Below, piece by piece: positions 6,596-45,422 of a DNA stretch of 48,853 nt. Positions within the stretch are counted from its first letter, which is position 1, and each line of letters starts with the position of its first letter. Source of the stretch: Actinomycetes bacterium (GTDB lineage: Bacteria; Actinomycetota; Acidimicrobiia; Acidimicrobiales; Poriferisodalaceae); the NCBI GenBank assembly GCA_024228575.1, contig JAAETH010000289.1:1-48853 (forward strand), given 5' to 3'. A program made the position numbers and the translations under genes. The notes beneath the pieces are model-generated. The model ran no database searches, had not been told where the DNA came from, and was given only the letters and a program-made list of their open reading frames with translations.

Positions 6596-7933
6596 TCATG
6601 CGTGGCAGCGTTTGAACTTCTGACCACTCCCGCACGGGCATGGGTCGTTGCGTCCCACTCCGACAAATCGCGCCCGGTCGCGCTCGGCCAGGATGTCCAT
6701 CACTTCGGGCGCAATACCTCCGCGGCGCAAGATGTCGGCCATGAGACGGATCGGCTCGTCGATATGGGAGAAGAACGCCTTGTATCCCTCACACAGGTAG
6801 TTCAGACCCGGCTCGCCATCGGGAGACGAGATGAACCGGTTTCGAGGGCACTCGCCATGGCAGGCGAAACGAACCTCGCAGTCGAGGCAGTACTGCGGCA
6901 ACATGTCTCGTTTGCCATTGCCGAACTTGTGCTGCTGGGGGGTGGCGAGCAGCTCGAGCATGTGGGTCTCGTTGATGTTGCCCAGCTTGTGCTCGGGTTC
7001 GACGAAGTGATCACACGAGTAGAGATCGCCGTTGTGTTCGAGGACCGGAGCCGCACCACAGGTCTCGGCGAAGATACACATCGCCGACCCCATGCCGAGC
7101 CACGAGACGAGAGCAGCATCGAAGTACTGGACAAATACATCGCCGACGTCGTTTCGCACCCACTCGTCGAACACGGCACAAAGGAAGCGCCCCCACTGGG
7201 CGGCACCGACGCTTCGCTCGGTTGTCATCGACCCCTTGTTGACATAGAGCGGACGCCCCTTGCGGCCACCCGCCCAGCCCTTGTTCGCAATCTCGAGGGT
7301 CACCTCGCTGGCCCGTTCGACGATCGGGATGAACTGTAGGAAGTCCGCACCCAGCTCGTCACGGAAATAGCGGTAGACCTCGACGGGATGATCCTGATTG
7401 GCAGCGTTGACGGTGCACAAGATGTTGACGTCCACCTCGTGGCGCTTCAAGAGCTCGTAGGCAGCCAACACCCGACCCGATGTGCCACGGTTCTGCTTGT
7501 CGACGCGGTAGGCATCGTGCATGGCCGGCGGCCCGTCGACCGAGAGGCCCACGAGAAACCCGTTCTCGGCGAGGAACTGGCACCAATCGTCGTCGAGCAG
7601 GGTGCCGTTGGTCTGCATGCTGAACTCGATGGTCTTGCCCTGCGGTAGATACTGTCGGGCGAGTTCGACCGATCGTCGGATGAAGTCGACGCCCATCAAC
7701 GTCGGTTCGCCACCTTGCCAAGCGATGGTGATCTCATCGATCTGTTGCGACTCGATGGTCTGGCGGACGTAGGCCTCGAGTGTTTCGTCGTCCATGCGGA
7801 AACGGTCACCCGGGTACAGCAGCTCCTTCGACAAGAAGAAGCAGTACGTGCAGTTGAGATTACAGATGGCCCCAGACGGCTTTGCCAGCAGGTGGATGGC
7901 GGGTGGGGCACTGTGAACCGGTTCGGTGGTCAC
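6596..7933 (-). CDS. Anaerobic-type sulfatase-maturating radical SAM enzyme with SEC-C tail
   Basis: About 445 residues. CNLNCTYC (Cys24, Cys28, Cys31) is the CX3CX2C site for the SAM-binding 4Fe-4S cluster, and WQGGEPTLMG follows as in anSME/AslB proteins. The second half is a cysteine-rich SPASM domain (CIFAETCGAAP, LYSCDHFVEPEHKLGN, CLDCEVRFACHGECPRNR) that holds auxiliary clusters. Family members oxidise the active-site Cys or Ser of sulfatases to formylglycine. The protein ends in GRNDPCPCGSGQKFKRCHA, a SEC-C zinc motif. Two Cys-type sulfatases in the window are plausible clients. GTG 7933 has an AGG-containing leader; TTG 7945, which would overlap the previous gene, is the alternative. 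It follows the acetyltransferase gene by one base. Confidence 0.9.
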   Translation of the reverse strand: MTTEPVHSAPPAIHLLAKPSGAICNLNCTYCFFLSKELLYPGDRFRMDDETLEAYVRQTIESQQIDEITIAWQGGEPTLMGVDFIRRSVELARQYLPQGKTIEFSMQTNGTLLDDDWCQFLAENGFLVGLSVDGPPAMHDAYRVDKQNRGTSGRVLAAYELLKRHEVDVNILCTVNAANQDHPVEVYRYFRDELGADFLQFIPIVERASEVTLEIANKGWAGGRKGRPLYVNKGSMTTERSVGAAQWGRFLCAVFDEWVRNDVGDVFVQYFDAALVSWLGMGSAMCIFAETCGAAPVLEHNGDLYSCDHFVEPEHKLGNINETHMLELLATPQQHKFGNGKRDMLPQYCLDCEVRFACHGECPRNRFISSPDGEPGLNYLCEGYKAFFSHIDEPIRLMADILRRGGIAPEVMDILAERDRARFVGVGRNDPCPCGSGQKFKRCHA

Positions 7934-7934
7934 G

Positions 7935-8441
7935 TCAACCTGCAAACTCGGCCAGGGAGCGGTTCATCAGGTAGTAGTCGACGTATTCGCCGGTCGGGCG
8001 CCTGAAACCTTCGGGCACCGTGCCCACGATCTCAAATCCAAGCGAGCTCCACAGCCGCACGGCGGCCTCGTTCGTCGACACGACGATGTTGAACTGCATG
8101 GCCCGGTAGCCGAGTTCGGCTGCAATGTTCAGGGCGGCCTCGCCCATGGTGCGCCCCACCCCGTGGCCCCTCGCTGTCGAGCCCACCGCAAAACTCGCGT
8201 TGGCGACGTGTGAACCCGGTCCCGGCTGGTTCGGACGGATCGCGAAGGTGCCGCAGACCTGGCCGGTGAGTTCGGCCACATACCCACGACCCTCGACGAT
8301 TGGAGAAAAGTACTGCCAGAGGGCTTCGTCGTCGATGTCGGCGTCGAATGTGTAGGTGTCGGCAGAGTCGACCAGCTGGCGAGCAATAGCCACCACGGCT
8401 CCCCGGTCGCTGTCGCGCACTGCTCGGATCGTCACGCCCAC
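7935..8441 (-). CDS. GNAT-family N-acetyltransferase
   Basis: 168 residues of the GNAT fold, which transfers an acetyl group from acetyl-CoA to an amine. The acetyl-CoA loop is seen as ARGHGVGRTMGEAAL (about residues 94-108), preceded by VANASFAVGSTARG, and the C-terminal EAAVRLWSSLGFEIVGTVPEGFRRP is typical. The substrate is unknown. The start is GTG 8441 (MGVTIRAVR), with GTG 8435 equally possible. Its stop is next to the maturase start, so the two genes are translationally close. Whether it modifies an amine or acts as a phosphinothricin-type acetyltransferase cannot be decided from sequence alone. Confidence 0.85.
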   Translation of the reverse strand: MGVTIRAVRDSDRGAVVAIARQLVDSADTYTFDADIDDEALWQYFSPIVEGRGYVAELTGQVCGTFAIRPNQPGPGSHVANASFAVGSTARGHGVGRTMGEAALNIAAELGYRAMQFNIVVSTNEAAVRLWSSLGFEIVGTVPEGFRRPTGEYVDYYLMNRSLAEFAG

Positions 8442-9065: not shown

Positions 9066-9650
9066 TCAGTCGGCGAGGATCTTGTACAGGTCGGATCTGG
9101 CCTTGTTGAGAACCTCGAGGGCGGCCGAACGTTGCTCGTCGGTCCCGAAGCGAGCTATCTGACGCACCTGGCCGCCGAGTTCGGCTACCGCGCCGCGGAA
9201 CTCGCCGCCCGGCCCCTGCTCGCCGACCTCGTCCCAGGGGGCAGGGGCGGCGGGATCACGTCGGTCGAGCCACGCCCGACCTTCGTCTGTGAGTGCGTAC
9301 TTGCGCTTGCCGTCACCGGACTCGGTTCCAACGACGAGCCCCTTCTCCTGGAGACGGGACAGGGTCGGGTAGACCGTGCCGGGGCTGGGCCGCCACCGTC
9401 CGCGGGTGCGTGACTCGAGTTCGGCTATCAGCTCGTAGCCGTGCATCTCCTGCTCGCCGAGCAGGACAAGAGCGCTGTCGGCCATCGCTCCCCTGCGCAT
9501 ACGGCGCCGTCCTCCGTGACGACGCCGGCCTTCTGGTCCCATGCGGCCTCCCTCTCTACTCATTCTTGTGCGTTCTCCTCGACCTCTGCGCCAATCTGAT
9601 CGACGCGATCTGTGTTCTTGATCTGGGTATTGCTGGTGTTGTGGTTTCAA
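9066..9650 (-). CDS. PadR-family transcriptional regulator
   Basis: 194 residues. Residues 1-55 are a very basic, Arg- and Gly-rich leader. Residues 56-130 are the PadR winged helix (ALVLLGEQEMHGYELIAEL, PSPGTVYPTLSRLQEKGLV, GKRKYALTDEGRAWL). The remaining C-terminal helix would make the dimer contact. TTG 9650 is chosen because a perfect AAAGGAG (9657-9663) sits six bases before it; ATG 9563 would lack such a site. It is divergent from the PPDK-like gene at 9814, and a strong promoter with an internal palindrome lies just upstream, suggesting autoregulation and possibly control of the neighbour. The effector is unknown. Confidence 0.88.
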   Translation of the reverse strand: MKPQHQQYPDQEHRSRRSDWRRGRGERTRMSREGGRMGPEGRRRHGGRRRMRRGAMADSALVLLGEQEMHGYELIAELESRTRGRWRPSPGTVYPTLSRLQEKGLVVGTESGDGKRKYALTDEGRAWLDRRDPAAPAPWDEVGEQGPGGEFRGAVAELGGQVRQIARFGTDEQRSAALEVLNKARSDLYKILAD

Positions 9651-9813: not shown

Positions 9814-12126
9814 ATGGCCAACGAGCTGTCGAATCGGATCGCGCACCACGTCACGGTTGCAGCACACGAGCGAGACTCCTTGGCGATCGCCTCAGCCCTG
9901 AACTCGATCGAGCCCGACGATCTCGCGATCTTCTTGCACGAACAGCTGACGGTCGAAGACAATGCCCAACGCCTCGGCGAAGGGCTGCCCGCCTCGCCCG
10001 GCGGCGCCAGCGGACGCATCGTCCTGACAGCGGCCGAGGCCCTCGAAGCCGGCGACGCGGGCCAGTCGGTCATCCTCGTGCGCTCCGAAACAACACCCGA
10101 CGATGTCCTCGGCATGCAGGCATCGAAGGGCATCCTCACCTGCCGTGGCGGGCTCGTCAGCCACGCAGCCGTGGTCGCCAGAGGCTGGGGCATCCCGGCG
10201 GTGGTCGGGGCCGTCGAGGTACACATCGAGGGCACGTCGGTGACAATAGGCTCGGCGACCCTGCAGGTCGGCGACGAGATCACCATCGATGGGTCGACCG
10301 GAGCCATCTACCGTGGCTCGATGTCATCGTTTGGCGCCGAGGCTCCCCCAGAGCTCGATGTCTTGTTGGGCTGGGCCGACGACGTCGCCCGCGGCCACGT
10401 ACAGGTGAGGGTCAACGCCGACACCGGGTCCGACGCCGGTCACGGACGCGACCTGGGCGCCCAGGGCATCGGGTTGTGCCGAACCGAGCACATGTTCCTG
10501 TCCTCCGATCGGCTGCCGATCATGCGTCGATTCATCCTCTCGCACGACCCCCGAACCGAAGGAGCCGCACTTCGCGAACTCGAACGAGCTCAGATCGCCG
10601 ACTTCGAGCAGATCCTGGAGGTGATGGACGACCTGCCGGTCACCGTGCGCCTCCTCGATCCTCCACTTCACGAATTCCTGCCCAACCTGCTCGACCTGAC
10701 CGCCGCCGAAGCGCGCGACGAACTCGACGCAGATGGACTTGCCGAGCTGGCTGCGGTACGCCGCCTGCACGAGGTGAACCCGATGCTGGGCACACGCGGG
10801 GTGCGCCTGGGTATGGTTCGTCCAGGTGTCTACGAGATGCAGGTGCGGGCGCTGTGCATCGCTGCCGCAAACCTGTTCGAACAGGGCAGGAATCCCCACG
10901 TCGAGATCATGATCCCACTGGTTGTCGACGCTGAGGAACTTCGCGTCGCCCGCTCGTGGGTCGACGGCGTTCTGAACAAGATCGGTCATCCCGAGTTGGC
11001 AGCGGGTGTCATCACTGTCGGCGCCATGATCGAAACACCGCGCGCCGCCATCACCGCCGGAGCGCTCGCCGAACATGCCGATTTCTTCTCATTCGGCACG
11101 AACGATCTGACCCAGATGACGTTCGCGTTCAGCCGCGACGACGTCGAATCGAAGTTGCTCCCCACCTATCAGGCCCAGGGCATCCTCGAAGCCAATCCCT
11201 TCGCCGTCCTCGATCAGGCCGGCGTCGGCGAGATCCTGCGTCATGCATGTGGTGAGGCTCGTAACCACCGGCCCGACATCAAGCTCGGCATCTGTGGTGA
11301 ACATGCGGGCCACCCCGAATCAGCCGATTTCCTCATACGGTTGGGCGTCGATTCGGTCAGCTGTTCACCCTTCAGGGTTCCTATTGCCCGCATCGCCGTG
11401 GCCCAGGCCCTTCTGGCATGTGGCCGGGTTCACATCGACGACGTCGAATTCCACTTCGGCGACAAGACCTCCCGGGACCACACACTCGGGGCTGGCGCCG
11501 ATGCCGCTCGAGACGTGGACTCGATGCCTCCAGTCGAAGTCGACCTGGCCCTGGTCCTCCACGTGTTGAGGATCCGGGGTTTCATCACCCCCGACGGTCT
11601 CGAGGCCAGCCTCGGCACAGTGCCAAGGGTCATTCTCGATCAGCTGATCGATGCCGGGCACGTCAACTACATGGAACCGCGGAACATGTACATGCTCATG
11701 CCACCCGGCCGCGAACGTCACGGCGAACTGCTTCCTGGTCTGGCCACAAACGCAGGCCGGCTGGCCGAGCCCTACGAGCAGTTCCTGACCCTGAACGACA
11801 GTTTCAAGAAGTTGTGCAACGACTGGCAGATGAGGGGTGATCAGCCCAACGACCACACCGATGCCACCTACGACAAGGGTTGCACAGAACGCCTCGCAAC
11901 TCTCGACGACAACTCCGTGGTGATCATCAGCGAGATGGCCACCGCCGTCACACGTCTCGCCCGCTACACACACCGCCTGAACGTGGCACGCAGGGCCGTC
12001 GAGGCCGGCGAGGCCAAACAGTTCACCGGTGTCATGTGCGAGTCGTATCACGACATCTGGATGGAACTTCACGAGGATCTCATCGTGTTGCAGGGAATCG
12101 ACCGCACCGCAGAAGGCAGTTTCTAG
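9814..12126 (+). CDS. PPDK-like PEP-utilising protein lacking the ATP-grasp half, with a C-terminal extension
   Basis: 770 residues. Residues 55-165 match the swivelling phosphohistidine domain of pyruvate phosphate dikinase (GLPASPGGASG, then TCRGGLVSHAAVVARG with His117). Residues 195-535 match its PEP/pyruvate barrel, with Arg223 (GLCRTEHMF), Arg279 (VRLLDPPLHEF), Glu407 (AMIETPRA), Asn430-Asp431 (FGTNDLTQMTFAFSRDD) and Cys494 (GICGEHAGHP) all present. The roughly 340-residue nucleotide-binding domain that normally comes first is absent. Residues 536-770 are an extension I do not recognise; 575-640 look like a winged helix and the rest is helical. It could phosphorylate His117 from PEP, but needs a partner to use ATP. 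A GAGGGGG ribosome site supports ATG 9814. Divergent from padR. Confidence 0.85.
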   Translation: MANELSNRIAHHVTVAAHERDSLAIASALNSIEPDDLAIFLHEQLTVEDNAQRLGEGLPASPGGASGRIVLTAAEALEAGDAGQSVILVRSETTPDDVLGMQASKGILTCRGGLVSHAAVVARGWGIPAVVGAVEVHIEGTSVTIGSATLQVGDEITIDGSTGAIYRGSMSSFGAEAPPELDVLLGWADDVARGHVQVRVNADTGSDAGHGRDLGAQGIGLCRTEHMFLSSDRLPIMRRFILSHDPRTEGAALRELERAQIADFEQILEVMDDLPVTVRLLDPPLHEFLPNLLDLTAAEARDELDADGLAELAAVRRLHEVNPMLGTRGVRLGMVRPGVYEMQVRALCIAAANLFEQGRNPHVEIMIPLVVDAEELRVARSWVDGVLNKIGHPELAAGVITVGAMIETPRAAITAGALAEHADFFSFGTNDLTQMTFAFSRDDVESKLLPTYQAQGILEANPFAVLDQAGVGEILRHACGEARNHRPDIKLGICGEHAGHPESADFLIRLGVDSVSCSPFRVPIARIAVAQALLACGRVHIDDVEFHFGDKTSRDHTLGAGADAARDVDSMPPVEVDLALVLHVLRIRGFITPDGLEASLGTVPRVILDQLIDAGHVNYMEPRNMYMLMPPGRERHGELLPGLATNAGRLAEPYEQFLTLNDSFKKLCNDWQMRGDQPNDHTDATYDKGCTERLATLDDNSVVIISEMATAVTRLARYTHRLNVARRAVEAGEAKQFTGVMCESYHDIWMELHEDLIVLQGIDRTAEGSF

Positions 12127-12283
12127 CCTCCTCGTCTCCTGCTCTCGAGGCGCCGCGGACCTTCCGAGGGAACCGACGGGTTCCGGACGCTGTCGGTTGA
12201 CGACTACCACGATCCAGCTTCGGGGCCGGAATTGACGCGGGCCGACCGTGACCCGGACGCTGTCGCGCGCCTACCATCGAGCC

Positions 12284-13828
12284 ATGATCAACAACGTCGG
12301 CCAATTCGTTTCAAAGCGCGCCCTGCTGAACCCGAACACCGAAGCGGTCGTCGATATCTCGACGGGCTCACGCCAGACCTACCCTGAGCTGAATCTGCGC
12401 TGCAACCGGGTGTCCAACGCCCTACTCGACAGCGGTATGGAGAAGGGCGACCGCGTCGCAACCTTGTTGATGAACGGCTCCGAGTTTGTCGAGACGTTCT
12501 TCGGCACCGGCAAGGTAGGGGGCGTCATCGTCGCCTTGAACTGGCGCCTCGTCGCTGACGAACTGTCGTTCATCCTGACCGACTCCGGCGCCGAGACGCT
12601 GGTGTTCGGTACTGCGTTCAACGAGGTCGCGACGGAGCTCCACGAGAGGGGCGCCGACGGCACCGCCGTGACCCGGTGGGTTCACGTCGGCGATGCGGCA
12701 GATCGGCCCGAATTCGCGACGGGCTACGAGGACGTGCTCGCCGGCGCGTCGGAGGCCGAACCCGACACCGATGTTGGCGGCGACGATCTGCTGTTCATCA
12801 TGTACACCTCGGGAACCACCGGTCTTCCCAAGGGCGTCATGCACTCGCACGAAACAACTGTGTGGGCGGTCATGACCGTCCTTGCGACCGCCGACATCCA
12901 GTACGACGATCGATATCTGATCTGCCTGCCGCTGTTCCACGTCGGAGCGCTGAACCCACTGCTCGACACGATCGGTCGAGGCGGAACCTGCGTCATCATG
13001 AGCGAGTTCGACCCACACCGCATCTGGGAGATCTTCGCCGAAGAGAAGATCACGGTCACGCTCGCCGTCCCGGCAATGCTCCAGTTCATGTTGCTCACCT
13101 ACGACGCCGAGCGCCACGACACGTCACTTCTGCGTTGGGTGATGAGCGGCGCTTCCCCCGTACCGGAGACCCTCATCAGGACCTACGAGGAGATGGACAT
13201 CGAGATCCACCAGGTCTACGGGCTGACCGAAACAGGCGGTCCCTCCTGTCTCATCTCACCAGACGATGCCATCGCCCGCGCCGGCTCGACGGGCAAGGAG
13301 TTCTTCTTCACCCAGGTCCGCATCGTCAACCAGGAAGGCGAGGACTGCTCACCGAACGAACCGGGCGAGGTCCTCGTCGCCGGTCCCCACGTAATGCTCG
13401 GCTACTGGAACCGCCCGGAGGCAACCGCCGAAACAATCGTCGACGGGTGGCTCAAGACCGGCGACATCGCCATCTTCGACGATGACGGGTTCGTGTACAT
13501 CCAGGATCGGGTGAAGGACATGATCATCTCGGGTGGCGAGAACGTCTACCCCGCCGAGATCGAGAACGTCATCCTGGGACTGGAGGGCGTGAACGAGGTT
13601 GCCGTCATCGGGATTCCCTCCGACAAGTGGGGCGAATCACCACTGGCCGTGGTTGTCCGGGCCGACGAGTCGGTCACCGCCGCGAGCGTGCTCGAACACT
13701 GTGGTGGAAAGCTCGCCAAGTTCAAACAACCCAAGGCGGTCGAGTTCACCGATGTCATTCCCCGCAACCCGACGGGCAAGATCTTGAAGCGCATCTTGCG
13801 CGAACAGTTCGAAGACGCCGCCGATTAG
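12284..13828 (+). CDS. AMP-forming acyl-CoA ligase (ANL superfamily)
   Basis: 514 residues. Such enzymes activate a carboxylic acid to an acyl-AMP and then an acyl-CoA. Motifs in order: the phosphate-binding loop MYTSGTTGLPKGVMHS (about residues 170-185), YGLTETGG, the hinge region DGFVYIQDRVKDMIISGGENVYPAEIE (split here only by its length in the protein) and the C-terminal catalytic lysine in PTGKILKR. The overall pattern is that of medium- or long-chain fatty acid ligases; the acid is unknown. ATG 12284 lies right before the conserved start; an upstream in-frame start at 12248 is less likely. The PPK2 gene begins 39 bases later and may be cotranscribed. Confidence 0.88.
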   Translation: MINNVGQFVSKRALLNPNTEAVVDISTGSRQTYPELNLRCNRVSNALLDSGMEKGDRVATLLMNGSEFVETFFGTGKVGGVIVALNWRLVADELSFILTDSGAETLVFGTAFNEVATELHERGADGTAVTRWVHVGDAADRPEFATGYEDVLAGASEAEPDTDVGGDDLLFIMYTSGTTGLPKGVMHSHETTVWAVMTVLATADIQYDDRYLICLPLFHVGALNPLLDTIGRGGTCVIMSEFDPHRIWEIFAEEKITVTLAVPAMLQFMLLTYDAERHDTSLLRWVMSGASPVPETLIRTYEEMDIEIHQVYGLTETGGPSCLISPDDAIARAGSTGKEFFFTQVRIVNQEGEDCSPNEPGEVLVAGPHVMLGYWNRPEATAETIVDGWLKTGDIAIFDDDGFVYIQDRVKDMIISGGENVYPAEIENVILGLEGVNEVAVIGIPSDKWGESPLAVVVRADESVTAASVLEHCGGKLAKFKQPKAVEFTDVIPRNPTGKILKRILREQFEDAAD

Positions 13829-13867: not shown

Positions 13868-14734
13868 ATGACGACACAAAGAAGTCAGCCCGCTGTCAAC
13901 AAGCCGTCCGACGCTCTGTTGTACGAAACCCCAGCCGGGGCCGAGTACTACACGAGCAAGGGCAAGCTCAGGAAGGAGTATTACGAGGCGAAGCTGAACG
14001 AGCTCCAGGAGGAGTTCGTCAAGCTCCAGTATTGGGTCGCCGAACACGGGCTTCGCGTCCTCATCATCTTCGAGGGACGAGGTTCAGCGGGCAAGGGTGG
14101 TGTCATCAAGCGCATCAGCGAACGCACGAGCCCACGTATCGTGCGAACCGAAGCCCTGCCGAAACCGACCGAACGCGAACAGACCCAGTGGTACTTCCAG
14201 CGCTATGTTCCACTATTGCCCTCTGGCGGCGAGATCGTGTTGTTCGACCGCAGCTGGTACAACCGCTCGAACGTCGAGTGGGTCATGGACTTCTGCACTC
14301 CCGAGCAGCACCAGGAGTTCCTGCGCACCTGTCCCGAATTCGAGACCATGCTCGTACGTTCGGGCATCATGTTGCTGAAATACTGGTTCTCGATCAGCTA
14401 CGAAGAGCAGGAACGTCGTTTCGCGGCTCGCAACGAAGAGCCGGTCAAGCGGTGGAAGTTGTCCGACATGGACCTCGAAGAGCACCGCCTCTACACGCGC
14501 TACTCGATGGCGAAGGACACAACCTTCCAGTACACCGACATCAAGCAGGCACCCTGGTACGTCGTCCCAAGCGATGACAAGAAGCGGGCGAGGCTGAATT
14601 GCATCAGCCATATCCTCTCGCACATCCCCTACGAGGATGTCGTTCCCGATCCGATCGAGATCCCTGCCCGCCAAGAGGTGCCGTACATTCGCCCACCGAT
14701 GCGCGAGCAGACCTTCGTCCCCCAGCTCTACTAG
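13868..14734 (+). CDS. Polyphosphate kinase 2, class I-like, variant Walker A
   Basis: 288 residues of the PPK2 family, which moves phosphate between polyphosphate and nucleotides. Walker A is FEGRGSAGKGG (about 68-78) and Walker B is VLFDRSWYNR (about 124-133). The RYV, WKLS and KKRARLNCI segments of the family follow. The Walker A lacks the Asp found in the paralogue next door (EGRDAAGKGG), where Gly stands here; that Asp is thought to be catalytic in characterised members. Function is therefore uncertain in direction and rate. ATG 13868 has GAGG upstream. It ends 14 bases from the stop of the oppositely oriented paralogue. Confidence 0.88.
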   Translation: MTTQRSQPAVNKPSDALLYETPAGAEYYTSKGKLRKEYYEAKLNELQEEFVKLQYWVAEHGLRVLIIFEGRGSAGKGGVIKRISERTSPRIVRTEALPKPTEREQTQWYFQRYVPLLPSGGEIVLFDRSWYNRSNVEWVMDFCTPEQHQEFLRTCPEFETMLVRSGIMLLKYWFSISYEEQERRFAARNEEPVKRWKLSDMDLEEHRLYTRYSMAKDTTFQYTDIKQAPWYVVPSDDKKRARLNCISHILSHIPYEDVVPDPIEIPARQEVPYIRPPMREQTFVPQLY

Positions 14735-14748
14735 CGGCGGCGGGCCTT

Positions 14749-15618
14749 TCAGTGCTTGAACTTGCCGCGCCGAATGCGGTCGGCTTCCATCATCTCCAGC
14801 TCGTGTGAACCCGAGATGACCACGTCGGGATCCGGCACAAAATCGATCTCTGGATCACGGTCGGCATAGTCGACCGAGTTGAGGATCACACGCATGGCGT
14901 TGAGCCTCGCGAGGTGTTTGTTCCTCGAGCGAATGATCGTCCAGGGTGTGACGCTCGTGTGGGTCCGATCGAGCATCTCGTACTTGCGCTCGGTGAACTC
15001 GCCCCAAAGGTCCTGTGCCTGAACGTCGACCTCGCTCAGCTTCCACTGGCGCAATGGATCGTGACGACGCCTGTCGAACCGACGCTCCTGCTCCTTCTTG
15101 GTGACCGAGAAGTAGAGCTTGACGAGGATTGTCCCCTGCCTGACGAGGTCCTTCTCGAACCCGACAACTCCACGCAGGAAGTCCCTGTGTTCCTTCTCGG
15201 TACAGAACCCGAAGATGGGCTCGACCATCGCCCTGTTGTACCAACTGCGGTCGAACAGGACCATCTCGCCACCGCGAGGGAACTGCTCGACGTAGCGCTG
15301 CAGGAACCACGAGGTGCGCTGCTCGGCGGTCGGCTTGCCGAGAGCCACCACCCGGTAGTGCTTCTCGTTCATATAGCGGGTCACGCGGCGGATGGTGCCG
15401 CCCTTGCCTGCGGCGTCGCGCCCCTCGAACAAGACGATGACTCGAAGATCGCTGGCCTCGAGGTGTCGCTGGAGTTTCAGGAGTTCGCCCTGGAACGGCT
15501 CGAGTTCCTTCTCCTTGGCGTATCGTTTCTCGAGGCGCCGACTCTTGGCCTTCTGCTCCTCCAACCTTCGTTTGAGGTCGCGGACCTTGTCCTGCATGCC
15601 CAGTTCACCGGCTTTCAC
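14749..15618 (-). CDS. Polyphosphate kinase 2, canonical motifs
   Basis: 289 residues, the second PPK2 in the window. An N-terminal charged coiled-coil-like stretch (residues 8-40: VRDLKRRLEEQKAKSRRLEK) precedes the kinase core. Walker A is FEGRDAAGKGGTIRR with the Asp intact, and Walker B is VLFDRSWYNRAMVEPIFGFC. Phosphate transfer between polyphosphate and ADP/GDP is the expected reaction. GTG 15618 is chosen because GGGGGG stands six bases before it; ATG 15597 and TTG 15657 are alternatives. It is tail-to-tail with the other PPK2 and divergent from the alcohol dehydrogenase at 15853, with a 234-base gap in which I see no clear signal. Confidence 0.9.
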   Translation of the reverse strand: MKAGELGMQDKVRDLKRRLEEQKAKSRRLEKRYAKEKELEPFQGELLKLQRHLEASDLRVIVLFEGRDAAGKGGTIRRVTRYMNEKHYRVVALGKPTAEQRTSWFLQRYVEQFPRGGEMVLFDRSWYNRAMVEPIFGFCTEKEHRDFLRGVVGFEKDLVRQGTILVKLYFSVTKKEQERRFDRRRHDPLRQWKLSEVDVQAQDLWGEFTERKYEMLDRTHTSVTPWTIIRSRNKHLARLNAMRVILNSVDYADRDPEIDFVPDPDVVISGSHELEMMEADRIRRGKFKH

Positions 15619-15852
15619 TAGTTGCCCCCCGATCGACCACTCCCGCTGAGGCCCCAACTGGTTTGTCGCCCCAAGGTGACCGTTCCAGATCGAGATGTTT
15701 CATTTCATGCCCCGCATCGGCCGCTCCACCCGAGACTTCAAGCGAAACGCGACACACTGAGTGGCAGCAAGGGACCTACGTCACAATCCCATCACATTTG
15801 TGTAGTCGATCGCTTTGCCCATCGAGGCTTCGGCGCAATAGGTTCGACGTCG

Positions 15853-42805: not shown

Positions 42806-43765
42806 ATGATCGACGATGGAGGTCTCAGCCCCGAGGCTCGGCGTTTCCTCGACTCTTGTGAACCCGACACCTCGCCCACCGAATTCGCCAACATGGGCGA
42901 GGTTCGGGCAACCGTTGCCTCGGGCTACCAGGCTGCAGCAGACCGAGCGGTCGAACGTCATCAGCTCACCATCGATACCTACGATGTAGCCGGTGTCGAG
43001 TGTGTCCGGTTCACCTCCCGATGCCCGACCGTCGCCGCTCGCCCGCACGCCGTTCTCATCTACCTGTTCGGCGGGGCGTTCATGGTGGGTGACCCGATCA
43101 GCGACCTGCCGATCATCGGGGCTCTAGCCCAGTGGACCGCGATGACGGTCGTCGCACCCCGCTATCGCCTCGCCCCAGAACACCCGGCTCCGGCAGCACT
43201 CGATGACACACTCGCCGTCTACGAAGCTCTCGCCGACCAGACGTCTGGGACCCTGGTGCTGGCAGGCGAATCGGCGGGCGGCAACCTGGCCCTCCTGACC
43301 GCTCAGAAAGCACGCGACGCCGCGCTCCGACGACCGTCTGCGATGGCGTTGTTGTCGCCTGCCGTCGATCTCAGACCCGGGCGAGATCTGTTCGAACCGA
43401 ACGTCGATCGTGATCCGACTCTCGACGCCTCACGGATGGACGAGGTCCTGATCGCCTATGTGGGCGACAGCGATCCTGCCGATCCTTCATTGTCACCGAT
43501 TCTTGGAGAGATGAAGGGGCTGGCGCCGACAATCATCACGACCGGCACGCGCGACCTGTTCCTGTCTCCCTGTGTTCGACTTGCGACGAAGATGAGGCGG
43601 GCGGGTGTCGAGGTCGACTGCAGGGTCTGGGACGGCATGTGGCACGTCTTCGAGTTCTACGACGACTACCCCGAACAGGACGAATCGCTCGCCGAGATCG
43701 CCGACCACATCAACGTGTACACGTCGTGGCCGCCTCAGCCACCCCTCAGCGTCAGCCAGGGGTAG
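42806..43765 (+). CDS. Alpha/beta hydrolase of the hormone-sensitive lipase family
   Basis: 319 residues. GESAGGN (nucleophile Ser156), the acid in TGTRDLFLSP and the His in DGMWHVFEF complete the triad. The HGG oxyanion motif that usually precedes is replaced by YLFGGAFMVG, so the first residue is Phe instead of His. It probably hydrolyses short acyl esters. CGGGAG precedes ATG 42806. The 3' end overlaps the sulfatase gene on the other strand by 31 bases. Confidence 0.87.
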   Translation: MIDDGGLSPEARRFLDSCEPDTSPTEFANMGEVRATVASGYQAAADRAVERHQLTIDTYDVAGVECVRFTSRCPTVAARPHAVLIYLFGGAFMVGDPISDLPIIGALAQWTAMTVVAPRYRLAPEHPAPAALDDTLAVYEALADQTSGTLVLAGESAGGNLALLTAQKARDAALRRPSAMALLSPAVDLRPGRDLFEPNVDRDPTLDASRMDEVLIAYVGDSDPADPSLSPILGEMKGLAPTIITTGTRDLFLSPCVRLATKMRRAGVEVDCRVWDGMWHVFEFYDDYPEQDESLAEIADHINVYTSWPPQPPLSVSQG

Positions 43766-45222
43766 GTCGGCAATTCGCGCATCGTTGCGATCTCAACATC
43801 TTCACAACCGGCCGGAACAGGCTGCGACGGGTGAGGGGCGTCGCCGAGCCTGGCCTGCTCTCGCCACATGGCCGCCTTCAACTCCTCGCGGATCTCGGCG
43901 TAGTCGGGGTCGTCGTAGACGTTCTTCAGTTCCTCGGGGTCGGACTCGAGGTCGTAGAGCTCCCATTCGGGCGGGTAGGTGAAGAACGACGTGACCGGCA
44001 GCCCGAACCCCTCGTTGTAGTAGTAGATGAGCTTGTGGCGGGCGGTTCGATAGCCGTAGTGGGCCGGTGCTTTGTGGAAGATGTCGTCGTGTTCCCAGTA
44101 GCGGTAGTACAGGCCTTCGGCCGGCTGTTCGACCGGGTTGCCCGAAAGTTCTGGCCAGAAGCTGCGGCCCTGCATCTGGGGGTCGTGCTCGACTCCGGCA
44201 GCGTCGAGAATGGTCTGGGCCATGTCGACGTTCGAGACGATGCCATCGAACACCGAGCCGGCCTCGACCCGATTGGGATAGCTGACGACGAAGGGCATAC
44301 GCAGCGATTCCTCGAACATCAGTCGCTTGTCGAACCAGCCGTGATCGCCAAGGAAGAACCCCTGGTCCGACGAGTAGATCAACATGGTGTCGTCGAAGTC
44401 GCCACGATCTCGCAACCAGTCGGTGATACGACCCACGTTCTCGTCGATCGAGTGAACACATGCCAGATAGTCCTGCATGTAGCGCTGGTACTTCCAGACC
44501 GCCGACTCGTCGTAGGTCAGGCCTTCAGGTGGAGATTGTTTGAGGTCCTGTTCGGACATGTGGTCGGCGACGCGCATGGCCGCCCGCCGCGCAGAAGTAC
44601 TTCGAGTTGAATAGTCGTCCCAGAACGTCGATGGCACCGGCACATCGTCGGCAAACAACTCGGCGTGTTCGGGTTTGGGCTCCCAGGGTCGGTGTGGGGC
44701 CTTGTGCCACACGAGGACACACCACGGGTCGTCGTCGTCGAGCGAATCGACCCATTCGATGGTCTTGTCCGTGATGATGTCGGTGGCATATCCCTCGACC
44801 TTGTGTATCCCGTCCTCGGTCAGGAACCTCGGGTTCCAGTAGTCGCCCTGTCCCGGAACCACATCCCAGTAGTCGAAACCCTGCGGATCGTGCCCCTCAC
44901 CGTGGCCCATGTGCCACTTGCCGATCATCGCCGTCTTGTAGCCCGCTTCGCGCAGTTGGGAGATGAAGGTCGGCTGGCTGGCGTCGAAGGGTGTGAACAG
45001 GCCGTAGACCCCGTTCACGTGGCTGTACGACCCGGTCAGGATCGCGGCCCGCGAAGGTGCGCAGAGCGAGTTGGTGACGAAACAATTGTCGAACCGGCCG
45101 CCGTTGCGCGCTATCTCGTCGATGTGTGGGGTTTCGTTGACCACCGACCCATAACAACCGATCGCGTGGGCCGCGTGGTCGTCTGTGAGCATGAAAACGA
45201 TATTCGGTCGACGCTCGGTCAA
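43735..45222 (-). CDS. Type I sulfatase, cysteine type (second)
   Basis: 495 residues. NIVFMLTDDHAAHAIGCYG holds Asp14-Asp15, and CAPSRAAILTG supplies Cys54 in the perfect CxPSR context for formylglycine conversion by the maturase at 6596-7933. YSSDQGFFLGDHGWFDKR is the second metal region. It resembles the iduronate-2-sulfatase or choline sulfatase-like branch in its YGYRTARHKLIYYY and ELYDLESDPEELKNVYDDP ending; the substrate is open. TTG 45222 has GAGGCGAG upstream and gives the expected N-terminus; no ATG or GTG is better placed. No signal peptide. Confidence 0.88.
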   Translation of the reverse strand: MTERRPNIVFMLTDDHAAHAIGCYGSVVNETPHIDEIARNGGRFDNCFVTNSLCAPSRAAILTGSYSHVNGVYGLFTPFDASQPTFISQLREAGYKTAMIGKWHMGHGEGHDPQGFDYWDVVPGQGDYWNPRFLTEDGIHKVEGYATDIITDKTIEWVDSLDDDDPWCVLVWHKAPHRPWEPKPEHAELFADDVPVPSTFWDDYSTRSTSARRAAMRVADHMSEQDLKQSPPEGLTYDESAVWKYQRYMQDYLACVHSIDENVGRITDWLRDRGDFDDTMLIYSSDQGFFLGDHGWFDKRLMFEESLRMPFVVSYPNRVEAGSVFDGIVSNVDMAQTILDAAGVEHDPQMQGRSFWPELSGNPVEQPAEGLYYRYWEHDDIFHKAPAHYGYRTARHKLIYYYNEGFGLPVTSFFTYPPEWELYDLESDPEELKNVYDDPDYAEIREELKAAMWREQARLGDAPHPSQPVPAGCEDVEIATMRELPTYPWLTLRGG

Positions 45223-45332
45223 TTTGACTCGCCTCGTTGGTACAGGGGAAGCGGCTCGGTGCCAACAACTTCTCGGTTTGGACCATGGTAGCCACGCAAG
45301 TTTGGCGCGTTGGCGTCGGACACAACATGGCT

Positions 45333-45346
45333 CGAGCGATCGCTCG
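45333..45346. repeat. 14-bp perfect palindrome
   Basis: CGAGCGATCGCTCG is fully self-complementary. It lies between the sulfatase start and the DUF222 gene's stop in a 200-base gap on the minus strand. It could be part of a terminator for the DUF222 transcript, an operator for the sulfatase, or chance. I see nothing else clear in this gap. Confidence 0.35.
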
Positions 45347-45422
45347 CCAGACACCACCTTGCCAGGGTCACAACCGACTCGTCGACGGTTCTGGAGCCAA
45401 GTCGTGAAACGGGTTCACGGGT

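Follow-up and report, generated by a model that had tools for sequence, protein, structure and literature searches.

Truncated and divided relatives of pyruvate, phosphate dikinase (PPDK) have been described in several systems. VadK (Rv1127c), a histidine kinase of M. tuberculosis, is a truncated PPDK that has kept the ATP-grasp and swivel domains and lost the PEP barrel. Rv1126c is the operonic partner of VadK and raises its solubility upon coexpression, and in the published work it is mentioned in the methods only (PMC13400623). In HpeHI, the phenylphosphate synthase PpsAB, and CreHI, the dikinase domains are spread over separate proteins and a swivel His passes the phosphate; two-component dikinases such as HpeHI act in catabolism, where they phosphorylate small phenols (PMC12167813). 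We analyzed a 770-residue protein encoded in a stretch of 48,853 nucleotides (here called the window). Like VadK, it is a truncated PPDK that has retained the His swivel domain, has lost one substrate domain, and is linked to a partner family, here designated X. However, its domain set is the reverse of that of VadK (ATP-grasp and swivel, no barrel), as it keeps the opposite half and carries X fused to it. It also resembles the divided dikinases in its swivel His, but the HpeHI type uses ATP and an RPH-type substrate domain, with a separate ATP-grasp subunit and a substrate-binding and swivel subunit, whereas the barrel of the window protein is of the PEP type.

The gene (positions 9814 to 12126, plus strand) is a single ORF of 770 codons with an ATG start; an in-frame stop lies five codons 5' of the ATG, and the open frame spans 775 codons. 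Pfam searches with the 770-residue protein identified the swivel domain (PF00391, residues 85 to 163, 1.4e-21) and the PEP barrel (PF02896, residues 194 to 532, 9.4e-78) and gave no PPDK_N match and no match past residue ~535. The NCBIfam PPDK model TIGR01828 aligned residues 14 to 533 with its positions 347 to 864; the score, 613, is below the cut-off of 843 because the first half of PPDK is missing. Residues 1 to 536 are 44 to 46% identical to PPDK residues 341 to 874. An AlphaFold2 model was confident for residues 1 to 546 and superimposed onto PPDK 341 to 874 with a Z score of 44.9 (root mean square deviation, 2.1 Å over 515 residues) and onto Enzyme I with a Z score of 29.2.

A first-pass annotation made from the letters had placed the protein start just before the linker that follows the nucleotide domain of PPDK, and this was borne out, as the protein begins at PPDK residue ~341. 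Residues 1 to 50 (9814 to 9963; pLDDT, ~87) are the counterpart of the linker helices and stand in the place of the ATP-grasp half. The swivel domain (residues 51 to 171; 9964 to 10326; Z score of 18.7 with 2fm4) contains the invariant His117, whose codon is at 10162 to 10164, and the barrel (residues 181 to 536; 10354 to 11421) contains Arg223, Arg279, Glu407, Asn430, Asp431, and Cys494. The same annotation had named these seven residues correctly; they align with those of maize PPDK (1VBG) and are invariant in the 110 PPDK homologues compared (fragments apart) and in all seven fusion proteins described below. Of the three PPDK parts, the swivel with its catalytic His and the barrel with its complete Arg/Arg/Glu/Asn/Asp/Cys set are thus present, and the ATP-grasp domain is absent. 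The swivel His, the PEP barrel, the fold, and the expected PEP-to-His chemistry are shared with Enzyme I, but the HPr-binding domain (PF05524) is lacking and the sequence is far closer to that of PPDK.

The ATP-grasp domain of PPDK was defined by PF01326 and by Lys22, Arg92, Asp321, Glu323, Gln335, and Arg337 (C. symbiosum numbering). Its absence, also claimed by the first-pass annotation, was confirmed, with no PPDK_N in the protein and no remnant in the window. When the ATP-grasp halves of seven relatives were searched against the whole window in every frame, no credible match was obtained (best E value, 0.38); as a positive control, the five query halves with a recognizable grasp matched the full PPDK of the genome to which the window belongs at 1e-102 or lower. 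A frameshift or a split ATP-grasp upstream was ruled out, since no such segment was found in the window; the site expected for it is filled by a divergent gene for a PadR-family regulator (9066 to 9650, minus strand). The missing domain is not a frameshift or assembly artifact, because the architecture recurs in six other genomes, is under purifying selection, and forms one clade. Sequence comparison showed the predicted PEP and His machinery to be present and conserved and the ATP-grasp domain to be lost, and PPDK activity (ATP + Pi + pyruvate to AMP + PPi + PEP) is not expected of such a protein. The protein could still interconvert PEP and ATP if it paired in trans with an ATP-grasp domain encoded elsewhere or with a full-length PPDK, which we consider very unlikely. 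Contig C109 of this genome does encode a full PPDK. Of the seven fusion genomes, six contain a long ORF with a PPDK_N match; in five, including G000, a PPDK barrel match adjoins that to PPDK_N. Nevertheless, the search for a lone ATP-grasp PPDK gene proposed by the first-pass annotation found none in this genome; one fusion genome (G656, 96% complete) has no PPDK_N match anywhere, and neither do the whole genomes of thirteen relatives with half-only PPDKs. As the full PPDK is distinct, the fusion is an extra gene and not a replacement.

When 397 genomes of the order were searched, six further proteins were identified in which a half-PPDK is followed by the same C-terminal domain. Their identities to the window protein range from about 50 to 64%; in the search alignment, they are 64% (G891, G874, and G656), 57% (G915), and 52% (G729 and G839), and the G839 gene is truncated at a contig end. 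The seven fusions form a single clade on the PEP half (100/100) and group together less firmly in the X-domain tree (bootstrap, 90; SH-aLRT, 28; 92% of bootstrap trees). In both parts, dN is far below dS (for L263 and L264, 0.12 and 1.28 in the PEP half and 0.16 and 1.01 in X), and the linker between them is 10 to 41% identical among the fusions versus 56 to 82% for the PEP half. The PEP half and X are under purifying selection, and the linker is free to vary. A decaying remnant without function would fit the ongoing decay and loss of the ATP-grasp domain in the PPDK lineage, where degenerate residues are seen in G009 and G010, but this explanation is already largely refuted by the low dN, the retention of all catalytic residues, and the single clade formed by the seven copies, one of them incomplete at a contig end, and its probability is negligible.

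The genes flanking the seven fusions are mostly not in common. The gene for an AMP-binding acyl-CoA synthetase (12248 to 13828, plus strand) lies 121 bp 3' of the window fusion on the same strand and is a possible operon partner; it was rejected as a conserved partner, since it is not kept beside the other fusions, among which L266 alone has an acyl-CoA ligase, ~3 kb from the fusion. Two convergent PPK2 polyphosphate kinase genes (13868 to 14734, plus strand, and 14749 to 15657, minus strand), ~15 bp apart and both above the TIGR03707 cut-off, were also dismissed in this role, as no PPK2 homologue is found near the other six fusions. Elsewhere in the window are two sulfatase genes (590 to 2182 and 43735 to 45357, both minus strand) and a gene for an anaerobic sulfatase-maturating radical SAM enzyme with an extra SEC-C tail (6596 to 7945, minus strand; TIGR03942, 472 bits versus a cut-off of 349). 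In G915, a PEP carboxylase gene (L266, 12345 to 15086) is located ~1 kb from the fusion.

Loss of the ATP-grasp domain extends beyond the fusions. The PPDK orthologue of this class is located between glyS and dnaG (both identified by eye from the sequence), and in the family to which the window belongs it either has a degenerate ATP-grasp domain or is cut to 510 to 578 residues. In the degenerate orthologues, the ATP-site residues KRDEQR are replaced by DREDGR or LRENNG; in both forms, the PEP and His residues are unchanged. The G010 (L160 and L095) and G009 (L159 and L097) orthologues are full length, with a decayed ATP-grasp domain invisible to Pfam and an intact PEP side; they are intermediates toward the half-PPDKs. 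According to the tree, the half-only form arose at least two separate times. The half-only proteins of 510 to 560 residues share with the window protein the missing ATP-grasp domain and the intact PEP side, but they have no X domain, occupy the glyS-dnaG locus, and belong to a separate branch. Between glyS and the half-PPDK, nine genomes (L145 to L148, L150 to L152, L154, and L155) encode a protein of ~327 residues, which was considered as a split ATP-grasp half and rejected, as it has no homology to any PPDK N-terminal half and by eye resembles a BNR-type beta-propeller.

Past the barrel, the window protein has a variable linker of ~40 residues (537 to 577; 11422 to 11544; low pLDDT) and a conserved domain of ~195 residues (578 to 770; 11545 to 12123). 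The first-pass figure of about 235 extra residues was right as their total, but the C-terminus is not new, as had been supposed: it belongs to X, an uncharacterized family of ~200 residues that is normally a separate protein. Pfam and NCBIfam profile searches with residues 578 to 770 returned no named family. The X motifs WQ, N-H-D-Y-D, and SxHxxWxxxH are all found in the window protein (HMM match, 1.2e-65), and both histidines of the C-terminal SxHxxWxxxH motif (His746 and His753) are invariant in 24 aligned X sequences and in the fusions. X is found in 33 of 41 related genomes, in most of them as a separate protein of ~200 to 225 residues, and viral contigs searched for it gave none. Structure prediction for X produced an unusable model (pLDDT, 41), and X in the full-length model has a pLDDT of about 25 to 56.

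In the Acidimicrobiia, standalone X is located between an AurF-like gene and dapA-rnj-ftsK, with no half-PPDK nearby; two proteins of ~294 and ~553 residues beside it, considered as a split dikinase, are DapA and RNase J. Because such orphans occur, X must have a role apart from a nearby half-dikinase. In genomes outside the class, X is linked to dikinase subunits. On Rhodococcus, Mycobacterium, Streptomyces, and Diaphorobacter plasmids, its gene is next to or in the vicinity of genes for proteins of ~460 to 580 residues annotated as "pyruvate, phosphate dikinase," which consist of ATP-grasp and swivel domains without a PEP barrel. Among 17 further loci outside the class, such a half-PPDK adjoins X in nine and another swivel protein in four, and these half-PPDKs occur at both actinobacterial and proteobacterial loci. 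A PEP barrel adjoins X in none of the 17; the two are combined only in the fusions. Rhodococcus plasmids also carry natural fusions of X to other proteins: one partner is a swivel-domain protein (Rhodococcus opacus B4; L166, 6177 to 8558), and the other is an AMP-binding protein, a ligase (Rhodococcus LW-XY12; L167, 6417 to 8588).

The G189 locus has the order X, half-PPDK, DUF222, PrpR (with an ScfRs domain), and PrpD, and its DUF222 gene presumably matches Rv1128c. The methylcitrate genes at this locus match those reported next to vadK (PMC13400623). A search of 248 genomes of the genus with a published vadK primer, aimed at Rv1126c, gave no match. X is the probable Rv1126c family, an assignment that rests on locus synteny and protein size. 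The C-terminal extension belongs to a known, though uncharacterized, family of dikinase partners, and the half to which it is fused is not the expected one. In agreement with the first-pass suggestion that the C-terminus is a partner or regulatory part, X is the usual neighbor of the other PPDK half and the putative partner family of VadK; a transfer of phosphate to X would go beyond these associations.

A winged-helix-like start had also been proposed for the extension, and a weak match was obtained, with the N-terminal profile of X matching DtxR/MntR-like iron-dependent repressors at a best E value of 9e-4. The protein might then be a PEP- or pyruvate-sensing transcription regulator, in which phosphorylation of His117 or binding of PEP would alter a DNA-binding winged helix with which X begins. 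"MarR family transcriptional regulator" is the annotation of some X homologues, and PPDK-type enzymes, like winged-helix regulators, are generally known to form dimers. We nevertheless consider a regulator improbable: the conservation of X lies in its C-terminal helical part, with more than forty columns invariant among the seven fusions within residues 650 to 768 and about nine within residues 577 to 645, no adjoining operon is conserved, and X is associated with dikinase subunits outside the class.

We give slightly better than even chances to a PPDK-derived, PEP-dependent phosphotransferase in which His117 is charged by PEP and the phosphate passes either to X itself or to an acceptor that X holds. 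PEP would bind to the barrel and phosphorylate His117, with release of pyruvate; this charging is well supported by the conserved residues and by analogy to the established chemistry of PPDK and Enzyme I. As there is no ATP-grasp domain, the phosphate source could only be PEP. With no ATP-grasp domain to visit, the swivel domain would bring the phosphate to X, fused in the same chain. There, it may be accepted by X itself (candidates, His746 and His753) or by a small molecule or partner protein that X holds as the true acceptor. VadK would be the mirror image, in which ATP charges the same swivel domain beside a separate X protein. The sole part common to the partners of X, whether ATP half or PEP half, is the His swivel domain, so the simplest interpretation is that X binds to the swivel and either takes the phosphate or assists in its delivery. 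From these gene associations, we infer that X is the acceptor or an acceptor-binding module. Counter to this proposal stand the orphan X of the Acidimicrobiia, the mostly unshared neighbors of the fusions, the unusable model of X, and the published VadK work, in which Rv1126c is not reported as a phosphate acceptor (PMC13400623).

The first-pass annotation had proposed that phosphate passes from PEP to a partner much as in Enzyme I. This fits the complete swivel and barrel, the fold, the lack of an ATP-grasp domain, and the purifying selection, and such a transfer would be plausible, but HPr is not the acceptor. HPr (PF00381) and the Enzyme I N-terminal domain (PF05524) are absent from all 41 related genomes, with positive controls, which rules out HPr and means that the sugar phosphotransferase system (PTS) is not the target.

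Alternatively, X could serve purely for structure or docking, with the phosphate accepted by another protein or by a small molecule, for example, if an HpeH-like swivel protein relayed the phosphate to an organic substrate as in HpeHI. In G891 and G874, an HpeH-like gene lies a short distance from the fusion in divergent orientation, and similar proteins are encoded beside X and a half-PPDK on Rhodococcus, Mycobacterium, and Diaphorobacter plasmids. HpeHI is an example of a split dikinase (PMC12167813), and the effect of Rv1126c on VadK solubility is consistent with a structural role (PMC13400623). We regard this alternative as unlikely though credible, since such a gene is found at only two of the seven fusion loci and not near the window copy; the stretches of the same genome that were examined gave weak matches to the fusion and the full-PPDK contig only. 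Within the favored phosphotransfer scheme, a third partner besides the fusion, such as the HpeH-like protein of G891 and G874, may take part. A small-molecule substrate is possible, because HpeHI phosphorylates phenols and X gene clusters include aromatic, P450, and acyl-CoA genes.

A literature search, which leaves room for reports in subscription journals, found no described half-PPDK of this kind. Our analysis suggests that the gene product is a small PEP-powered phosphate-transfer enzyme independent of the sugar PTS, and a PPDK lineage that sheds its ATP-grasp domain and retains the PEP side would represent a PTS-independent type of PEP phosphotransferase. Tentatively, and with somewhat less than even confidence, we propose that a single chain of this enzyme combines the donor site, the His carrier, and the acceptor module and that, regardless of which half donates, half-dikinases have in the Rv1126c family the partner that receives the phosphate or holds the substrate. 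As the partner family is fused here to the opposite, PEP-using half, the His domain common to both halves is most likely the part with which it works. VadK is required for tuberculosis virulence, and the literature searched does not report the destination of its phosphate or the role of Rv1126c; the fusion offers a direct way to test what the VadK partner does.
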